This document shows, piece by piece, positions 1,061-13,344 of a DNA stretch of 22,665 nucleotides (positions are counted from its first letter, which is position 1; the number at the start of each line of letters is the position of its first letter). Source of the stretch: Desulfuromonas sp. SDB (lineage in GTDB: Bacteria > SDB-A); the NCBI GenBank assembly GCA_001412365.1, contig LKUE01000208.1:1-22665 (forward strand), written 5' to 3'. Both the position numbers and the translations under genes were made by a program. The notes below the pieces were generated by a model. That model saw only the letters and a list, made by a program, of their open reading frames with translations. It made no database searches and was not told where the DNA came from.

Positions 1061-1094
1061 GGCGAGGTTCAGGTTTAAACCTGAACCTCAAGCC
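1061..1094. terminator. Perfect palindrome between convergent genes, probable terminator
   Basis: Positions 1064-1089 form a perfect 26-bp inverted repeat with arms GAGGTTCAGGTTT and AAACCTGAACCTC. GGC at 1061-1063 can pair with GCC at 1092-1094 across a two-base bulge. Read on the minus strand the hairpin is followed by a short T run (the AAAA at 1057-1060), so it best serves the minus-strand operon ending at 1107. It may also stop plus-strand transcription of the transglutaminase-like gene. Confidence 0.7.
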
Positions 1095-1106: not shown

Positions 1107-1631
1107 CTAACGGGAAATAATCAGCTTGGCGCTGGAGGTGAAGTTGTCTGATCTCATCAGAACAAAGTAAGTTCCGCAGCTGAAACTGCGGGTATCTAAC
1201 TGGATTTGATATATACCCGGTTGAAAACTTTGATTTACTATTTCCTGTACTTCTCTTCCGGAAACATCGAACATGAATACTGCCACCGGAGATAATACGG
1301 GTACTTGAAATTTTATATCTGTATATTCTGAACAGGGATTAGGATAGTTGGGAAGAAGGCGGTATACTTGAGGGATTTGATCATCACCTGGATTTTCATA
1401 TTCCACCCCTAATGCCTGAAATAAATTTGAGTGCAGTATTCCCGCGGTTTCAGTATAACTGCCCCCGGTGCTGTAGCCGGTAACCGATTGTCCAATAGCG
1501 TCAACTAACTGATAACTAGATCCGGTGCTTAATTTGCCGGAAATATCGAATGCTGATTTTTTAATCTGATAATTCTGGGCAAATAAGCAACCTGCAGGCA
1601 AGATAAAGATAAGTAAAATTTTCCAGCGCAT
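1107..1631 (-). CDS. Small exported protein with T9SS type A sorting domain
   Basis: This 174-aa protein has an N-terminal signal peptide (MRWKILLIFILPAGCLFAQ). A short beta-rich stretch rich in Gly, Ser and Thr follows, of the form seen in many T9SS cargo proteins (SSYQLVDAIGQSVTGYSTGG). The last ~85 residues form a sorting domain: the LLPNYPNP start motif, then VFMFDVSGREV, GIYQIQLD and a closing KLIISR strand. Such domains direct outer-membrane translocation and surface attachment or release by the type IX system. The start codon overlaps the stop of the upstream surface-protein gene (TAATG), so translation is coupled; a GAGGTG ribosome-binding site lies just before it. Most of the protein is sorting domain, so it may be a small structural partner of the 525-aa protein rather than an enzyme. 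Confidence 0.88.
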   Translation of the reverse strand: MRWKILLIFILPAGCLFAQNYQIKKSAFDISGKLSTGSSYQLVDAIGQSVTGYSTGGSYTETAGILHSNLFQALGVEYENPGDDQIPQVYRLLPNYPNPCSEYTDIKFQVPVLSPVAVFMFDVSGREVQEIVNQSFQPGIYQIQLDTRSFSCGTYFVLMRSDNFTSSAKLIISR

Positions 1632-3208
1632 TATTCACCTCTCGGTTGAATAGCTTTAACATCATCTCTAATCGTTTGAAGTTCTGATCTGAGCTCTTCA
1701 ATTTCTTGTTCTAACTGGTCGCATCGGGAGGATAACTGCTGATTTTCCAGAGTCAGTAGTTCGAGGTTTTGATTGATTTTCTGGTTTTGCCGGGCTAATT
1801 CCTGGATGGCCAGAATTGCTACTCCCCCCATATCAATACCTGCTATATATCTGGGATCGGATCCGGTTTCAAACAGCTGGTAGAAGTCTTCCGCTACCGG
1901 ACTGATATGAGTGATCGCTTGTGATTCTCCCTTGTAATTATAACGGTAGATAGGTAAAGATAATACTTTTTCAAGTATTTCGTCGCTTTTCAGGGGAATG
2001 AAATTTTCTTTAAATGTTCGGGAACAACCATTAGTCCATACTCCTCCCGGACTCAGGAAGGCACCGTTTCCGTTGGTGGGATTGGTGCCCACATGGAGGG
2101 GAAACAGGGGATTTTCATTGTTGATTCCGAAATTATAGGGGATATTGGTGCCGTCTCCGAAAACAATGCTGTTGGGGTTCTGGATTAATACCGGATCGGA
2201 AGGTGAACCATGCCCCCAGCCGAAAGTCTGCGGAGCTAACGCCAGGACATATAGCCCTCCCGCTACAGTTGAAAAGAATCCTCCGCATTGATTATTGCTT
2301 CCTCCGTTAATATTTGAACCGAAAGCAACGGGTAAGATTGTATTGAAAACTCCTCCTGAGATTACCGCGCTGTCTGTTTCAATAACATTCATAAATCCAG
2401 CCCCGATGTTGGAAAAAATGGTGCCGTTGGAAATCATGTTTTCATGTCCGCCTCCTATTGCTGAGTAAGCACCCTGAGCCCAGTTGGTGGCTCCTCCCGC
2501 TACCGTGGAGTAAATTTCATCAGCTATATTACTCAATCCTCCTCCCACTGTAGCTCCGTCCTGAATGGCGCTGTTACCTGATCCGCCTCCCACCGTGCAG
2601 TAGGAATAATTTGAAGAACTGGAACCGGTGGTGCTGTTCACTCCCAGACAGACATGAGTGCTGTCATAGATACCCCATAAATTATTGGTTTGCCTCATGG
2701 ATAATCCGTAATCCATAAATGGAGCTAAGATATTCCCTATTACTATCCAGTCGTTATCCGGAGAAGCAGGGGCAGATTGAGCGTATACTGCGGTATCAGC
2801 ATAAAATGATCTCACTGCATAGGATACAGTTACAATTTTCTTACGGGGGGAGAGGGTTTGAGAAGCTATCTTGGTTTCCAGCCAGAGGGGATTGCCATTG
2901 AAGTAAGTTGCTGAAAATGGATTGTTTGAACCGAGTATCACATTGAAAATACCATTTCTTATAATTACATTGGAGTGAGATTCCGACCACAGCTGAGTTC
3001 CTCCGGTTGATTGGGTGTACAGCTTGAATTCCATGTTTAAGGTGTCATTAACCGTTGAGTCGTTATCCATCAGGTATCCTTGATAATTAATTTCCAGGGG
3101 AACTGATCTGTAATCTTGGGTATTGATGATTAAATCATTATGGTTGTCTAAACCAAACAGACTGACTACCCATATCAGACTGATTAACACTAGAGCTGTT
3201 CTCTTCAT
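1631..3208 (-). CDS. Surface protein with YadA-like head repeats and C-terminal S74-type chaperone domain
   Basis: Residues 1-19 are a signal peptide. Residues ~38-140 form a beta domain common in secreted proteins of this type (INYQGYLMDN, LWSES, NGIFNVILGS, SPRKKIVTVSYAV, YADTA). Residues ~200-330 contain repeated Gly-Gly turns (CTVGGGSGN, ATVGGGLSN, STVAGGATN, SAIGGGHEN, ISGGVFN, STVAGGL), the signature of trimeric-autotransporter left-handed beta-roll heads. Residues ~394-470 resemble the intramolecular chaperone of endosialidase (peptidase S74): SRTFKENF, then LPIYRYNYKG and an IAGID segment. The final ~50 residues are a heptad-like coiled coil (QNLELLTLENQQLSSRCDQL). Together these indicate a trimeric fibrous surface protein. 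It has no T9SS tail of its own, unlike its operon partner. A strong GGAGGT ribosome-binding site precedes the ATG, and a sigma-54 promoter lies ~35-50 bp upstream. Confidence 0.88.
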   Translation of the reverse strand: MKRTALVLISLIWVVSLFGLDNHNDLIINTQDYRSVPLEINYQGYLMDNDSTVNDTLNMEFKLYTQSTGGTQLWSESHSNVIIRNGIFNVILGSNNPFSATYFNGNPLWLETKIASQTLSPRKKIVTVSYAVRSFYADTAVYAQSAPASPDNDWIVIGNILAPFMDYGLSMRQTNNLWGIYDSTHVCLGVNSTTGSSSSNYSYCTVGGGSGNSAIQDGATVGGGLSNIADEIYSTVAGGATNWAQGAYSAIGGGHENMISNGTIFSNIGAGFMNVIETDSAVISGGVFNTILPVAFGSNINGGSNNQCGGFFSTVAGGLYVLALAPQTFGWGHGSPSDPVLIQNPNSIVFGDGTNIPYNFGINNENPLFPLHVGTNPTNGNGAFLSPGGVWTNGCSRTFKENFIPLKSDEILEKVLSLPIYRYNYKGESQAITHISPVAEDFYQLFETGSDPRYIAGIDMGGVAILAIQELARQNQKINQNLELLTLENQQLSSRCDQLEQEIEELRSELQTIRDDVKAIQPRGE

Positions 3209-3242
3209 CTTTTTTACCTCCGGTTAGATTTTCTATATATAT

Positions 3243-3258
3243 TGCAACTTCCGTGCCA
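3243..3258 (-). promoter_or_regulatory. Sigma-54 (RpoN) promoter
   Basis: On the minus strand the sequence is TGGCACGGAAGTTGCA, an exact match to the -24/-12 consensus TGGCACG-N4-TTGCA; a preceding C fits the extended consensus. The predicted transcription start is about 3232, giving a short leader that contains the GGAGGT ribosome-binding site before the ATG at 3208. It faces the 525-aa/174-aa operon. No other match of this quality was found in the window. Confidence 0.88.
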
Positions 3259-3338: not shown

Positions 3339-3353
3339 GGAACAAATTGTTTC
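3339..3353. promoter_or_regulatory. Putative enhancer (UAS) site 1
   Basis: The 15-bp imperfect palindrome GGAACAAATTGTTTC has 6 of 7 positions symmetric around a central A. It fits the consensus G-NN-ACAAWTTGT-NN-C shared with two other sites in this intergenic region. Its centre is about 114 bp upstream of the predicted sigma-54 start, the usual range for enhancer-binding protein sites. Confidence 0.65.
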
Positions 3354-3361
3354 GAAAACAG

Positions 3362-3376
3362 GATACTATTTGTTAA
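3362..3376. promoter_or_regulatory. Putative enhancer (UAS) site 2, degenerate
   Basis: GATACTATTTGTTAA matches the 15-bp consensus of the other sites except for two fixed positions. One half-site (TTGTTA) is intact and the other is decayed. It sits 23 bp centre to centre from site 1, consistent with cooperative binding of dimers. This is the weakest of the four sites. Confidence 0.4.
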
Positions 3377-3416: not shown

Positions 3417-3431
3417 GATACAAATTGTTAC
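3417..3431. promoter_or_regulatory. Putative enhancer (UAS) site 3
   Basis: GATACAAATTGTTAC matches the consensus G-NN-ACAAWTTGT-NN-C. Its right half-site, TTGTTAC, is identical to that of site 4. Its centre is about 192 bp upstream of the predicted sigma-54 start and 18 bp from the centre of site 4. Confidence 0.65.
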
Positions 3432-3434
3432 GAT

Positions 3435-3449
3435 GTGACAATTTGTTAC
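3435..3449. promoter_or_regulatory. Putative enhancer (UAS) site 4, overlapping the regulator's stop codon
   Basis: GTGACAATTTGTTAC is an imperfect palindrome with 6 of 7 positions symmetric. It overlaps the TAA stop codon (3446-3448) of the 1717-aa regulator gene. Its centre is about 210 bp upstream of the predicted sigma-54 start. Confidence 0.65.
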
Positions 3450-6400
3450 TTTTTAACAAGCTTGTATTTTTTTATCAGCCGGTAAAGCTGAACTCTGCTG
3501 ATTTTAAGATGTTGAGAAGCTTTAGTAATATGCCAATCATTTTTTTCCAGGGCATTATTGACTAATTGTTTTTCAATATTATCCAATGTATCCCTTAATG
3601 ATGATTTAATTACAATCCCGTTTTTACTTGCACTAATCTTTTTTAGATAATTGTCCTTTGATTGTAATTCCAGGCTATCTATGGGATTATTGCCTTTATG
3701 TTTGACTACTGATTTAGCAATTACATTTTCCAGTTCCCTGACATTTCCCGGCCAGTGATAATTATTTAATCTTTCCAGAGCAGAAGGGGTAAAACCGGGG
3801 ATATTGCGGTTAGCTAATTTACAGTGCTTTTCCAGGAAAAAATATGCTAAGAGAGGAATGTCCTCCACTCTATCCCTTAAACTGGGAACATCAATACGCA
3901 GAACATTTAACCGGTGATATAAATCTTCCCTGAATCTGCCAGTACTGACTTCTTTCTCTAAATCTTTATGGGTGGCTACAATAATTCTGGTGTCAATCTG
4001 GATTGGTTTTGACGCACCAATCCTCCAGATCTGCTGATCTTGAATAACTCTAAGTAATTTAGCCTGAAGATCAATGGGGAGATCTCCGATCTCATCTAAA
4101 AAGATTGTACCCTGATTAGCCAGTTCAAATTTCCCCTTTTGATCTTGTTTGGCTCCGGAAAATGAGCCCTGCTGATATCCGAAAAATTCAGATTCAGCCA
4201 ATCCCCCCGGAATAGCAGAGCAATTTACAGGGATAAAGGGTTGATTTGATCTACTGCTTAGTTGATGAAGAGCTTTAGCCACCAGCTCCTTTCCGCTGCC
4301 GGTTTCTCCGGTTATATAAACAGTTAAATCTGAATCAGAAATTTGTTTAATTTTTTCGTACAGGTTTTTCATGCTGTCGCTGTTTCCAATAAATAATCCC
4401 AGGTTTCTTATCTCAGATTGAGTTTTAAGCTTTTGATTATTATTTTGTTCAATTAACAATGGACCTAGTAATTCAGCAATTGTCTCCACTTCTTCCCGGT
4501 CAATCTCCATGAATTCACCCTTGGAAATATCTCTGCGGTCTACATAGAGAACCCCTAAAATCTGATGGTCTTTTGTCTTCAAAGGGGTAGCCAGTATGGA
4601 TAAAAATGTTTTACCGATTATGCTGGGATTAGATTTCAATGCTTCTTTTTCTAAAGCATTGGGAATTATCTGGGTTTTTTGAATTTGAAAAACCTGTTCC
4701 ATTATTCCTGTGCTGAAATCAACCTCATCTGAAGATATCTGTTTGGATAGATATCTAATATAGTGTTTAGATGAATCCCCAGATTTATCATCGTTTATCA
4801 AAATTATCTGGGCGGTATCCGCATTGATATCCTTTATCAGAAATTCCAAAAATTCTTGAAATGCAGTTTGAGGATTCAGAAATTTGACCAAGATATTCAG
4901 TAAATTGCGGTCATAGGATCTTGCTTGATCACTTGATTTATGATCATTGATCATCTTAGCTATCTCCTGTTGTCTGTGTAAATCTTTTAAATTCAGCATT
5001 CTTTGCCTGAACAGTTGATTATATAAATGTAAGATTTTTTGGATGTAAGGCTGAATTTCAGGCAATGGTTTAGCAATAGATTTTATTAGGTTGTAATAAA
5101 TCTCAATTTTTTCAGAAATATTGTCTGTATTATCAGCCAGTCTGCTGAAATGTTCAATTGAACTGGATGATGGTTTGTTTAAAAATTCTAACCTGTGCCT
5201 AAATAATTGCAGGGTAGTATCAGTTTGATGGGGAGGTAGTTTATCAAGAAAATTAGAACTTAATTCAAGATTTTCCTGAGATTTTTTAATGTCGCCTTGA
5301 TCGAAGTGCAGTTCAGCTTTTTCAATGTACAAATTAAATAATAAACTGTAATTATTTTGCTGATTAGCCTGATGAATTCCTTTATCTAGCAAATCCAAGG
5401 CTTTAACATAGTTGCCAGTTAATAGATAAAAGTAATTTAAACTTTGTTCAACTTTAAGGATTCTAACGTAATTGCCTAATTCCAGGACATTTTGGTATGC
5501 CTGGTTTAAATAATTTCCAGCTTGTTTATATTCTTTTTTTAACATATAGATTATTCCCGCCTTTTCCAGAGATCCAACTAGATATTCTTTTTCTCCAATA
5601 TTTTGAGAAAGTTTTATGCACTTAAAACAGTTTTTCAAAGCCTGATCAAGATTCTTCTGAACCATTAATATGTTAGTAGTGTTCAGAAGATATAATAAAA
5701 TCCCAGGTTGATTGTTGATGGTTTTATTTATCTGGAAATACTGGTCATAATATTTCAAAGCTTGGTCGAATTCAGAATTCTTAGCATAAATATTGCCGAT
5801 ATTTAACAGAGCTAAAGAATATATTTTTTGGGAACTGAATTCTTTGGAAATTTCTGCTGATTTAAGATAATAATCTAATGCTTCTGGGTTTTTATTTAAG
5901 TAGAAATTCAGATTTCCATTGTAAAGCAGAGCTTTTGCTAAAACTGCATTATTTTTGGTTTGTTCAGCCAGCATTAATTGCTTCTGATAAAGTTGTTCGC
6001 ACTTTTTAAAATTTCCTTGATTTAGGTAAATAGTACCCATTTCCCCTAAAGCTTTACTTAAACCTTCCACATAAGATGTCTTTTCACATAATTCAACAAC
6101 TTTTTGATAGTAACCTAAAGAATCGCTGTAATTTCCCTTTCTTCTTAAAATATGAGCTAAGTAGAAATTTGAATCAGCTTGTAATTTTTTATCAGCAGTA
6201 TTTTGGGATAAATTTTGAGCATTTGAAAACTTTTGTTCAGCTTTATCCCAATCACCCCCAAACTCATAAAGTTCACCTTGGGCAATGTATATTTCAGTTA
6301 CTTCCCGGGTATCCTTTTGAGGGTCCAGATATTCAAGGCAGATCGAATAATAATTTAACGCCTGCTCATACATTATTTGATTTCTGGCTTGTTCAGCGGC

Positions 6401-8599
6401 AATTTTATTGTAAGATACTGCTTCTGTTTTTGACTTGGCTTGATTAAAATGAAAGGCGATGTTTTCAATTTCCTGTCTTTCCAGAGCTTGGTAAAGCTGG
6501 TCAGTATTTTTAAAAATATGCTGATTAATATCAATTAAATTACCCTTTTGTAATTTTCTGTTTATCAGATGAAATGATTTGTACTTATTTTGAAAATAAT
6601 TTGCAATTTTAAGATGAAGCTTTGTTTTTTCCGGTTTTTCCAGCATAGATTGAAATATGTCTTTGTAACACTGATGTTTAAAAGAATAACAAGCTTCTTC
6701 CTGGTAATATTCCAATATAAATTGAGATCTTGCTGTTTCCAGATGATCAATTACTTCTCGTTCCTCCTGTCCGGAGAGATAGGCGATAATTTCAGAGGAA
6801 AAAGAAAACTTCAACAGGGATGCAATTTTCAGAAATAGTTCTACTTTGGAATCTAAATTGTTAAATCTCAACAGAAGTAGGTTCTCAATATCTCCCCCTA
6901 GATGCTCTTTTTGTAAGATTTTTTGTTTAGTGGACATCATATTCTGATTAATTTCAATCTGCCCGAAATTGTACAGATATTGGATTAATTCAATTATGAT
7001 CAGGGGAATCCCATTGCTTATTTGATAAATCTCCTCCAGAGAATCTTCATCTATATGTAAATTTTGATCAAGCATGGATAGAATTAAATTCCTGGTCTCC
7101 TGTAGATTTAAAGGCATAAGTTCAATATAGGTGATTTTTGAATCAGGAGAATATTTATTTTGTCTAAGAATTGGTAATTCCGGTTTAACTGTGCTGTTAT
7201 CGGTGGTCATAATTAATATTATTGAAGCTTGAATTCCCATAGACAAAAATGAATTAATCCATTTAAAAGTCAGATTTTCATGATAATGAACATCATCAAT
7301 GAAAATTACCAGAGGTTTTTGGCAGGATTTACTGAAATTAAAGATTAGATTGTTTATTGATTTAAAAATACGGGATTCAGATATATTTTCATCTAAATAA
7401 GGAATTTTATTGATTTTCTGCATAAAATCCTTTTTACCCAGATATGGTTCAATAATGGTTAAATCCCAAGCATAGGTTCCGAATATTTCAATTTTTTCAG
7501 AATCTGAATAGTTTTCTACTGCTGTTAAAATTTGATTGATCAGAATTTTGAAAAATTTATATGAAGAGCTTTTAGGGGTAGATTTATATTCAACCAGGGG
7601 ATGTTGAAGTATTCTAAATCCAATACCCATCTCTTCCCAAAGTTTGGTTTTACCAATTCCAATGGAACCCTGAACAATTACTGCTTGGTTACCTCCTTCA
7701 ACCTTACTGGTAATTAAGCCGTTTATTTTTTTTATCACCTGTTCTCTTCCAATAAAACCGGGTGGAGATAATAGGATTTGATTGAATTTAGTAATTCCAG
7801 CTATATTAACTGTTGATTTTAAAATTGAAATTACTGAATTAACAGCGGGATATCTATGTCTTGGATCTTTGGATAATAGTTTGTTGACCATTTTGTTGAA
7901 ATTTTCGGGTATGTTGGGCACCAGCTTGTTTAAAGAGGGTGGATTATTGTAAAGATGTTTATAGGCAATTTCAGTAAAGGTCTGCCCTTGAAAAGGTTCT
8001 TCCTCCGACAACAGCATGAAAAATAATATCCCCAGGGAATAAAGATCGCTTCTGAAGTCAACTTTTTTTGCATTTACACATTGTTCAGGAGAAGAATATT
8101 TAACTGAACCCAGAAACTGATAGTCAATAGTCTGGGAGAAATCCTGAATTTTAACAAAGTCAAAATCAGTTATCTTAACTGTTTTATTGTTATTGACTAA
8201 AATATTCGAAGGTTTTAAATCGCGATGAACCATATTGTGATGATGAATAGTTTTCAAACCTTCACAAATTTGCAAACCAACATCAACAAATAAGTTGAAA
8301 TTTAAATTGCCTTGTTCATCTCGGATATGTTGAGGGGAGATTGCCTTTCCCTCAATGTATTCCATAATAATTCCAAACTGGTTATCCTGTTCAAACCAAT
8401 CCAAGATTTTCACACAGTGGGGATGATTAATTTTTTTTGCTGAAGAAAAACTTAAATAAAGCCGCTTAATTATTTGTTCATCTGAAATTGGATACTTAAA
8501 CTGCTTAAATGCAAGTGTCCCTGGTATATCCGGAGATATTATCTTGTAAATATCACAGGTTGGAGTGGATGAAATTTTATCAATAATTTCGAAATTCAT
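3446..8599 (-). CDS. Sigma-54-dependent enhancer-binding regulator with kinase-like, AAA ATPase, TPR and GAF sensory modules
   Basis: This 1717-aa regulator has six modules. Residues 1-~265 are a Ser/Thr kinase-like domain (HRDLKPSN at 125-132, SPE at 170-172, but no Gly-rich loop and DFD instead of DFG). From ~281 there is an AAA/STAND-like ATPase (FIGRE; Walker A GSIGIGKT at 311-318; Walker B VIFIDD near 430). Residues ~725-1110 are TPR repeats and ~1230-1385 a GAF domain. Residues ~1400-1635 are the sigma-54 AAA+ domain (Walker A GETGSGKE, loop GSFSGA in place of GAFTGA, FLDEIGDLP, REDLYHRL, WPGNVRELE). The C-terminus is a Fis-type HTH (HITKASQHLKISRVQLYRL). The kinase-ATPase-TPR front resembles signalling cores seen in bacterial Ser/Thr kinase fusions. 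It lies directly upstream of, and in the same direction as, a sigma-54-driven surface operon, its likely target. No clear Shine-Dalgarno precedes the ATG. Confidence 0.93.
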   Translation of the reverse strand: MNFEIIDKISSTPTCDIYKIISPDIPGTLAFKQFKYPISDEQIIKRLYLSFSSAKKINHPHCVKILDWFEQDNQFGIIMEYIEGKAISPQHIRDEQGNLNFNLFVDVGLQICEGLKTIHHHNMVHRDLKPSNILVNNNKTVKITDFDFVKIQDFSQTIDYQFLGSVKYSSPEQCVNAKKVDFRSDLYSLGILFFMLLSEEEPFQGQTFTEIAYKHLYNNPPSLNKLVPNIPENFNKMVNKLLSKDPRHRYPAVNSVISILKSTVNIAGITKFNQILLSPPGFIGREQVIKKINGLITSKVEGGNQAVIVQGSIGIGKTKLWEEMGIGFRILQHPLVEYKSTPKSSSYKFFKILINQILTAVENYSDSEKIEIFGTYAWDLTIIEPYLGKKDFMQKINKIPYLDENISESRIFKSINNLIFNFSKSCQKPLVIFIDDVHYHENLTFKWINSFLSMGIQASIILIMTTDNSTVKPELPILRQNKYSPDSKITYIELMPLNLQETRNLILSMLDQNLHIDEDSLEEIYQISNGIPLIIIELIQYLYNFGQIEINQNMMSTKQKILQKEHLGGDIENLLLLRFNNLDSKVELFLKIASLLKFSFSSEIIAYLSGQEEREVIDHLETARSQFILEYYQEEACYSFKHQCYKDIFQSMLEKPEKTKLHLKIANYFQNKYKSFHLINRKLQKGNLIDINQHIFKNTDQLYQALERQEIENIAFHFNQAKSKTEAVSYNKIAAEQARNQIMYEQALNYYSICLEYLDPQKDTREVTEIYIAQGELYEFGGDWDKAEQKFSNAQNLSQNTADKKLQADSNFYLAHILRRKGNYSDSLGYYQKVVELCEKTSYVEGLSKALGEMGTIYLNQGNFKKCEQLYQKQLMLAEQTKNNAVLAKALLYNGNLNFYLNKNPEALDYYLKSAEISKEFSSQKIYSLALLNIGNIYAKNSEFDQALKYYDQYFQINKTINNQPGILLYLLNTTNILMVQKNLDQALKNCFKCIKLSQNIGEKEYLVGSLEKAGIIYMLKKEYKQAGNYLNQAYQNVLELGNYVRILKVEQSLNYFYLLTGNYVKALDLLDKGIHQANQQNNYSLLFNLYIEKAELHFDQGDIKKSQENLELSSNFLDKLPPHQTDTTLQLFRHRLEFLNKPSSSSIEHFSRLADNTDNISEKIEIYYNLIKSIAKPLPEIQPYIQKILHLYNQLFRQRMLNLKDLHRQQEIAKMINDHKSSDQARSYDRNLLNILVKFLNPQTAFQEFLEFLIKDINADTAQIILINDDKSGDSSKHYIRYLSKQISSDEVDFSTGIMEQVFQIQKTQIIPNALEKEALKSNPSIIGKTFLSILATPLKTKDHQILGVLYVDRRDISKGEFMEIDREEVETIAELLGPLLIEQNNNQKLKTQSEIRNLGLFIGNSDSMKNLYEKIKQISDSDLTVYITGETGSGKELVAKALHQLSSRSNQPFIPVNCSAIPGGLAESEFFGYQQGSFSGAKQDQKGKFELANQGTIFLDEIGDLPIDLQAKLLRVIQDQQIWRIGASKPIQIDTRIIVATHKDLEKEVSTGRFREDLYHRLNVLRIDVPSLRDRVEDIPLLAYFFLEKHCKLANRNIPGFTPSALERLNNYHWPGNVRELENVIAKSVVKHKGNNPIDSLELQSKDNYLKKISASKNGIVIKSSLRDTLDNIEKQLVNNALEKNDWHITKASQHLKISRVQLYRLIKKYKLVKK

Positions 8600-11154: not shown

Positions 11155-13344
11155 TTACTGAACAGTCATTAATTTTTCAGTTTGAGAATAGTGCTTAGAT
11201 GAAAAACGGACAAACCAGATTCCGCTGCGTCCTACCGGTATGGTCAGATTATGATTTCCCACCTGATTTTCAAAGCTGTACTGCTGTACCATTCTACCGG
11301 ACAGATCGAATAGCTGAATGGAAACATTATCATTCTGGGGCAACTGATAATTGACCGTAATATTGTTTTCTCTGGCTATAGCGGAGAAGGTAAATGGCTC
11401 CGATATCACTGGCTGCTCGTGTACATTACCTGCACTGCAGATCACAGTTTTTTCAGTGTTGGAGTAATTGCCCCACCCCCTGCTGTTATGTCCTCTAACT
11501 CTGAAATAATGATCTCCCACTGGCAGTGAAGTCAGATTATAGGTGGTATCGGTGATGTTGGAATCAACCACGGTGATAGAACTAAATTCCGGTACCGGAT
11601 AGATGTCGTCCACATAGAATCCTTCATCTAAAGTGTTGTCGTCAGTCATTGACCTGAACCGGAAGTAAACTGCCTGCCCTTGGTAATCCTCCAGGCTGTA
11701 TTTTTTCTGAATCCATCCGCCTGAATTATTAGTGTAACGGACATCGAATTGAATCCATTCCATCTGATCCACCGAAATCTCCACGGTAGCTACATCGTAA
11801 TTATTTTCCAGATCATACCAGCACCAAAAGATTAAACTGTCTCCAGGTTGAACCAAGTAAGGATATTTGGTTTGAGCGACATTGGAGATGTTGTCAGCTG
11901 AACCGGAGAACAAACTGTAAGATCCGCTATGTTCCCTAACTGTACTCTGGGTAAATCCGTTTAATATCCAGTTGGAGGTCCCTGATTCGATATCGTCAGT
12001 GGTATAACTGTATCCCTGCAGATGATCTAACTGCCACTTGTCTGGACTGTTCCAAGCCGAATTAACCGGGATCCAGCTGATCGGGCAGCTGGCGGTAGTT
12101 GCGCTGTCGGGAATGTCCACCTGGGGTGAGGGAACTCGGGCTAACAAGTTGTCCCTGATGCTATCCGCCATTTGAGCCAGGTACATTGCTCCGTCCCAGT
12201 TTTCTCTGACGATATCATCCAGATCACCGGTGGGCTGATAAAATGAAGTTCCTACTTCAATAGTATAAGCCAGGCAGGAAGTGCCGCAGATGAAGTGGTG
12301 ATATCCGTAAACCCAGGTACGGGTGGTTCCGGTATTAGGATAAAGACTTCCTGAAGCCACATAATTTCCGCCGTTCAATCTCTGTATCCGGCTGGACAGC
12401 TGGTTGGCAATAAACTCATAAGCAGTACTGTCCGGGGTCTTTATAGATGTGTTATAAGCCCAGGGCCAGATGATCTCTTCGGCATAACTGTGATAGGTAA
12501 TATTAGCATTAATATCATGGTTGCGGTAAAATTCCATCATCCAGTAAACCGCATCTCCCCATCCGGCATAAGCTCCGCAGAAAGTTGTACTGGATGGATT
12601 ATTGGACATGGAAGCATTGGGAGGGACCACTCCCCAGTCTCCGTCAGGATCGCCGTTTAATGCTCCGTTGTAGTTTCGGTTTAAATCAGTGCCGGTAGAT
12701 CCGCCAAAAGGTTTGCGGTTTTTACGCCACATGTTCTGTCCGGGATAATCGTATTCATATCCATCCGGATTCATAATGGGAATAAGCCAAATTTCATTGT
12801 TGTTCACTAAGTTGGTTATATCCGGATCACTTCCGTATCCGGTCAACAAGGTGTCTGCATAAAATAAAATCACTTCAATAGTAGCCCATTCCCGGGAATG
12901 ATGCAGACCGTCAAAAAGAACTCCCGGTTCGCTGGGATCTTCATATCCGGGATTGTCGGATATTTTTAAACAGTAAATCCAACGCCCTTGATAACTCTGT
13001 CCTATGGAATCCAGAACACAGATATTGGAGTAAGTAGTAGCATAATTCCGGAGTATATTATTGGTTTCAGTGTAGCTGTGATAGGATCCCCTGAACTGCT
13101 CCTGATAGGCGGTTAGGTTGTCGGTGATCACTTCATAATCCAAACCGGAAGAGATGATATTGGAAAATTGATCGGGAGTTATTACCAAATCAAAGTACTG
13201 CTGATATTCTCTTCCCGCAATGTCCAGAGATTTAAGCTGAATTTGGTTTAACTGCTGGTAATCTGAGGCGTAAACTCTAACCAGCATTTCATTTTCAGCA
13301 GGATAGCTGAAAAGCATAATTAACAATAAAAAAATATTAGACAT
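11155..13344 (-). CDS. Secreted M14 zinc carboxypeptidase with T9SS type A sorting domain
   Basis: The 729-aa protein begins with a short signal peptide. The M14 catalytic domain spans ~85-395. Zinc ligands are H149 and E152 (HHSREW) and H285 (TYHSYAEE); substrate-binding residues lie in NPDGYEYD, MWRKNRKP and DLNRNY; the catalytic Glu is E363 (TIEVG). All key residues are present, so it should be an active extracellular metallocarboxypeptidase that trims C-terminal residues. Residues ~440-590 form a jelly-roll or MAM-like beta domain (WILNGFTQS, YFRFRS, FYVDDIYP), and a fibronectin-like segment follows. The last ~70 residues are a T9SS sorting domain (VSIQLFDLSGRMVQQYSF, GIWFVRFSS). AGGAGGGG precedes the ATG. 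It probably supports growth on peptides, and it is transcribed alone. Confidence 0.93.
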   Translation of the reverse strand: MSNIFLLLIMLFSYPAENEMLVRVYASDYQQLNQIQLKSLDIAGREYQQYFDLVITPDQFSNIISSGLDYEVITDNLTAYQEQFRGSYHSYTETNNILRNYATTYSNICVLDSIGQSYQGRWIYCLKISDNPGYEDPSEPGVLFDGLHHSREWATIEVILFYADTLLTGYGSDPDITNLVNNNEIWLIPIMNPDGYEYDYPGQNMWRKNRKPFGGSTGTDLNRNYNGALNGDPDGDWGVVPPNASMSNNPSSTTFCGAYAGWGDAVYWMMEFYRNHDINANITYHSYAEEIIWPWAYNTSIKTPDSTAYEFIANQLSSRIQRLNGGNYVASGSLYPNTGTTRTWVYGYHHFICGTSCLAYTIEVGTSFYQPTGDLDDIVRENWDGAMYLAQMADSIRDNLLARVPSPQVDIPDSATTASCPISWIPVNSAWNSPDKWQLDHLQGYSYTTDDIESGTSNWILNGFTQSTVREHSGSYSLFSGSADNISNVAQTKYPYLVQPGDSLIFWCWYDLENNYDVATVEISVDQMEWIQFDVRYTNNSGGWIQKKYSLEDYQGQAVYFRFRSMTDDNTLDEGFYVDDIYPVPEFSSITVVDSNITDTTYNLTSLPVGDHYFRVRGHNSRGWGNYSNTEKTVICSAGNVHEQPVISEPFTFSAIARENNITVNYQLPQNDNVSIQLFDLSGRMVQQYSFENQVGNHNLTIPVGRSGIWFVRFSSKHYSQTEKLMTVQ

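Follow-up and report, generated by a model that had tools for sequence, protein, structure and literature searches.

Is the exported fibre-like protein encoded in this stretch of DNA switched on by the very large regulator encoded beside it? A sequence-only reading had proposed that an exact sigma-54 promoter places the protein under dedicated control of a neighboring activator. We compared the window (the whole stretch analyzed, 22,665 nucleotides) with the rest of its genome and with genomes of other phyla. In our assessment, the locus is very probably a self-contained sigma-54 cassette, in which the giant regulator activates the promoter next to it, with one regulator per secreted cargo. 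The features involved are the following:

1063-1090, minus strand: terminator-like hairpin after the two-gene unit (pattern scan; shuffles give a similar number of such matches)
1107-1631, minus strand: 174-aa exported protein with a T9SS type A sorting domain (C-terminal TIGR04183/PF18962 over cut-off)
1631-3208, minus strand: 525-aa exported protein with signal peptide, N-domain, YadA/UspA1-like head repeats, S74 domain and coiled coil (Pfam, PDB match)
3217-3221, minus strand: ribosome-binding site GGAGG (from the sequence)
3243-3258, minus strand: sigma-54 -24/-12 promoter element TGGCACGGAAGTTGCA, an exact match (TGGCAC-N5-TTGC, GG and GC 10 bp apart)
3341-3374, no strand assigned: candidate upstream activator site, an inverted repeat of AACAAATTGT, ~85-115 bp upstream of the promoter (weak statistics)
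3420-3446, no strand assigned: second candidate upstream activator site, inverted repeat ACAAATTGT / ACAATTTGT, directly past the activator stop codon (suggestive)
3446-8599, minus strand: 1717-aa candidate activator, Pkinase - AAA_16 - TPR - GAF - Sigma54_activat - HTH_8 (Pfam)

The promoter element and the operon behind it

The 16-mer reported at 3243-3258 on the minus strand was recovered at the same place as an exact -24/-12 match; it is present in a single copy in the 3.14 Mb genome, and is the sole match in the window to TGGCACGNNNNTTGCW with two or fewer mismatches. It should be noted that, in this two-mismatch search of the window alone, the element is indistinguishable from chance; therefore, the weight rests on the genome-wide count and on the position of the element. 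Exact matches to TGGCACRNNNNTTGCW numbered 7 across the 3.14 Mb assembly, compared to ~0.8 expected from base composition, and allowing one mismatch yielded 31 matches, compared to 3 for the reversed control pattern. As to position, the distances given in the sequence-only reading were reproduced: 34 nt separate the end of the element from the ATG at 3208 (approximately 35 bp had been given), and 237 bp separate this ATG from the stop codon of the activator gene, which runs in the same direction. The distance from that stop codon to the element itself is 187 bp, and transcription of the operon is predicted to start at ~3232. The presence of RpoN had been named as a point to check, and rpoN is encoded in the genome (contig C361). 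The core-binding (CBD) and DNA-binding (DBD) domains of the protein score far over cut-off and its box reads ARRTVAKYR, while its activator-interacting domain (AID) falls slightly under the cut-off (22.9 vs 23.8 bits).

Promoter, ribosome-binding site and hairpin together point to a two-gene unit. The claim that a YadA-head/S74 gene is coupled to a gene with a T9SS tail was borne out by Pfam (S74 and Por_Secre_tail) and by the overlap of the two genes as TAATG. The head repeats of the 525-aa protein match the sequence of UspA1 (PDB 3pr7, E = 2e-9), supporting a YadA-like head, and its tail is coiled-coil-like; the protein would be expected to form trimers, to be expressed as a fibre and to be displayed on the cell surface. 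A similar anatomy is found in the MAT chimeric fibres of Bdellovibrio, which consist of a signal peptide, a beta-rich N-domain, a repetitive shaft and a C-terminal S74 domain (PMC10769870). However, the N-domain of the 525-aa protein matches NF053851 weakly (28.8 bits vs a cut-off of 60), its shaft is YadA/UspA1-head-like, and the S74 motif, which is SDxxxK in the MATs, reads CSRTFK (at residue 395, and likewise in a paralog on contig C210). The 525-aa protein is MAT-like, not a MAT member, and, given the altered motif, self-cleavage is not to be assumed. Both S74 paralogs (window 1631-3208; L067:2155-4119) have Cys at the position expected for the catalytic Ser. The window also contains a second T9SS cargo (11155-13344), an M14 zinc carboxypeptidase with a MAM domain and a sorting tail, which has no sigma-54 match.

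The giant regulator

The identification of the neighboring gene as a sigma-54 activator stands (Sigma54_activat domain in Pfam, 233.9 bits); its 1717-aa fusion architecture was absent from the earlier reading. The AAA+ module keeps Walker A (GETGSGKE), Walker B (FLDE) and the L1 loop, which reads GSFSGA, a variant of GAFTGA. A C-terminal Fis-type HTH is present (PF02954, 1.9e-10), and the AAA+ and HTH parts can be aligned to enhancer-binding proteins of solved structure (ZraR, E = 3e-78). In the predicted kinase domain, the catalytic K, the D of HRD, the N and the D of DFG are all present, and K32, D127, K129, N132 and D145 are invariant among 8 giants; in the window protein, the Gly loop is degenerate and DFG reads DFD. 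No stretch of the 1717-aa protein is hydrophobic enough for a membrane segment, and its sensor is thus probably cytoplasmic. There are 10 strong sigma-54 activator domains in the genome, 3 of them in giants of the window type. Genomes of the same family (G000-G003) also encode dozens of proteins, 1100-1500 aa long, that are similar to the AAA_16/TPR region of the window giant but have no sigma-54 domain.

We propose the following mechanism. The regulator would sense a signal through its STAND-like TPR/AAA_16 part, the GAF domain and/or the kinase; its AAA+ module would form a ring, and the Fis-type HTH would bind the upstream sites. The ring would then remodel the RNA polymerase-sigma-54 complex waiting at 3243-3258, and the two-gene unit, i.e., the exported fibre-like protein and its small partner with a T9SS tail, would be switched on. 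As to the candidate upstream sites, shuffles did as well as the AACAAATTGT repeats at 3341-3374 and 3420-3446 in 4/200 to 42/200 cases, according to the word length and the mismatches allowed, and a search for an upstream-site motif shared between cassettes found none. Taken together, the sigma-54 sites show an enrichment of inverted repeats upstream (combined p = 3e-5), although some of these repeats may be terminators of the regulator genes.

Recurrence of the layout within the genome and in other phyla

Both further giants of the genome, on contigs C114 and C353, also adjoin sigma-54-like sites, ahead of different genes. The C114 giant (L065, 792-5102) is followed by two exact sites, one preceding a 110-aa gene without a Pfam match, and the other preceding a gene for a gingipain-like protease (C25) that bears a T9SS tail. 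The C353 giant, which is cut by the contig end, has a divergent site with one mismatch, TGGCATAAAAAATGCT, before an exported-looking protein. Conversely, no sigma-54 site was found upstream of the C210 paralogs of the fibre/tail pair, which have no giant beside them. Thus, the promoter tracks the regulator, and not the fibre pair. Two further sites lie within genes, one in the giant gene of C114 (7048-7063 of L065) and one in a gene on C398, and we discounted both as probably due to chance.

Two other arrangements were observed in both genera of the family. Pilin-like genes have a sigma-54-like site tens of bases upstream (L076:1350-1365, L190:8327-8342, L192:4657-4672), a promoter that is conserved across the two genera, unlike that of the window. 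At L068:5398-5413 and L191:5856-5871, similar small genes (129-130 aa) stay close to both a sigma-54-like site and a gene for a sigma-54 activator.

In three other genomes of the same family (sister genus), neither the giant nor the fibre protein was found, and there was no orthologous cassette. Giants of the same layout are present in other phyla. More than 20 such kinase-sigma-54 regulators occur in one genome, G329 (L177, L178, L239-L258), and the gene after several of them encodes a YWTD propeller with a T9SS tail. Profile A1, applied at E<=1e-180, detected no giant in the phylum of G006, where more diverged giants exist (L183, L185); a scan of the named genomes with the giant returned a single match, an irrelevant TPR.

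Giants were identified by profile, and those with a co-directional next gene at a distance of at least 60 nt were counted, which gave 28 cases. The pattern TGGCAYN5TTG, which was settled after some sites had already been seen, was present on the coding strand of the gap in 18 of the 28 giants (G329 copies not being independent of one another), in none of the 28 on the opposite strand, and in 5 of 71 control gaps. This association is significant (Fisher p = 1e-8, for a set nearly identical to the 28, where several of the control matches are further cassettes). With a stricter pattern, the frequencies were 9/28 for giant gaps and 4/71 for control gaps. Among giants collected once the pattern had been settled, nearly all of them outside the window clade, 1/7 matched the loose and 2/7 the strict pattern, compared to 1/19 controls; since this later set is mostly negative, the claim is limited to the clade of the window giant and scattered others (L181, L183, L251, L262, L313, L314). 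In a tree of the AAA+-HTH parts, the window giant belongs to a 20-member clade of giants that spans three phyla (support 100/97). A sigma-54 site accompanies 14 of the 20, and for 10 of those 14 it is located 165-291 nt past the regulator stop, several at 187-201. The -12 part is often TTGA or TTGT in G198 and G329, where the match to the classical consensus is weaker. The regulator-promoter-exported-protein layout belongs mainly to the subfamily of the window giant.

The gene that follows a giant is exported-looking, according to a simple heuristic, in 17/27 cases, compared to 21/73 controls (p = 0.002). The cargo includes YWTD propellers with T9SS tails, proteins of the MAM, FG-GAP and beta-propeller-repeat types, carboxypeptidase-regulatory domains, and lipoprotein-like proteins. 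Distant giants keep the regulator and the promoter and precede other exported genes; thus, it is the wiring that is conserved, and not this particular fibre. Since the layout recurs in unrelated phyla while the exported protein changes, it may be a reusable module by which a cell controls its outside.

Several other explanations have to be weighed against this one. The promoter may be real and yet be served by another enhancer-binding protein, with the giant acting elsewhere or only as a kinase. The 10 strong activator domains of the genome offer candidates for this role, several sigma-54-like sites are away from any giant, and the candidate upstream sites are weak; however, the site goes with giants rather than with other genes, at the same position in the gap, in several phyla and ahead of different cargo, and we consider a different activator unlikely. 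Alternatively, the association could result from the copying of whole blocks, a regulator together with the DNA that follows it, rather than from promoter function. Many paralogous giants in G329, several of which have related YWTD-propeller cargo, and the concentration of sites in one clade are what copying would produce. It would not readily account for similarity that is confined to the -24/-12 letters on one strand only, in a clade with long branches and varied cargo (S74 fibre, 110-aa protein, lipoproteins, YWTD, MAM, FG-GAP), and we regard it as highly improbable.

If the element were a chance match, transcription of the operon would stem from read-through of the giant gene, or would start at a sigma-70 promoter between that gene and the operon. 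Indeed, a pattern scan of the minus strand found no terminator between the giant gene and the operon, and a weak sigma-70-like site is present at 3410-3383 on this strand, although sigma-70-like matches are about as many as in shuffles. Set against this are the genome-wide excess of exact sites, the right strand, distance and ribosome-binding site, and the recurrence of the site beside other giants, which leave chance with hardly any credence. Our preferred reading is that the giant acts on its own adjacent promoter. So far as can be judged from sequence, the dedicated sigma-54 control put forward in the sequence-only reading is supported by RpoN, by the intact activator modules, by the layout of the operon with its promoter, ribosome-binding site and hairpin, and by a pairing that recurs twice in the genome, beside the paralogs, and in other phyla.

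Relation to known systems

The giant shares the AAA+ domain, the lid and the Fis HTH with classical enhancer-binding proteins (NtrC, ZraR, NorR, NifA), and, as in NifA and NorR, its GAF domain is immediately ahead of the AAA+ domain; it differs from them in having 1200 extra N-terminal residues (kinase, AAA_16, TPR). All its scores against NCBIfam equivalogs are under the respective cut-offs. The kinase, AAA_16 and MalT-like TPR follow one another in the same order as in STAND/PknK- and MalT-like proteins, and we take this front part to resemble PknK; the output, however, is a sigma-54 activator, and neither a LuxR-type HTH nor just a kinase.

Activators located near their targets are common. 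In polysaccharide-utilisation loci, one dedicated local regulator stands beside one set of surface genes, with many copies per genome, and the regulators are hybrid two-component systems, SusR, or ECF sigma/anti-sigma pairs, whereas here the regulator is a sigma-54 giant. Control of exterior functions by sigma-54 and its enhancer-binding proteins has been published (Francke et al. 2011, PMC3162934), and our case resembles that work in combining a sigma-54 promoter, an AAA+ activator and an exterior-linked target, and in drawing on gene context. A text search of that paper found no mention of Ser/Thr or other protein kinases or of TPR, whereas here a kinase-AAA_16-TPR-GAF activator pairs with one secreted protein. 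One regulator per surface protein is thus familiar from polysaccharide-utilisation loci; in the open-licence literature, we found no description of the kinase-STAND-GAF sigma-54 activator architecture, of its cross-phylum pairing, or of such control through giant soluble kinase-STAND sigma-54 activators.

We lean towards the view that the kinase-STAND-GAF-sigma-54 subfamily is a plug-in system, found in several phyla and in more than 20 copies in one genome: every copy would control a single secreted or surface protein through the sigma-54 promoter beside it, and exterior proteins could thereby be switched separately. If this is true, a giant together with TGGCAY-N5-TTG in the following gap would be a searchable signature. 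For phyla that have been little studied, such a signature would predict condition-dependent secreted proteins, several of them T9SS-tailed, and it would offer a direct route to what the giants sense and to what their kinase does.
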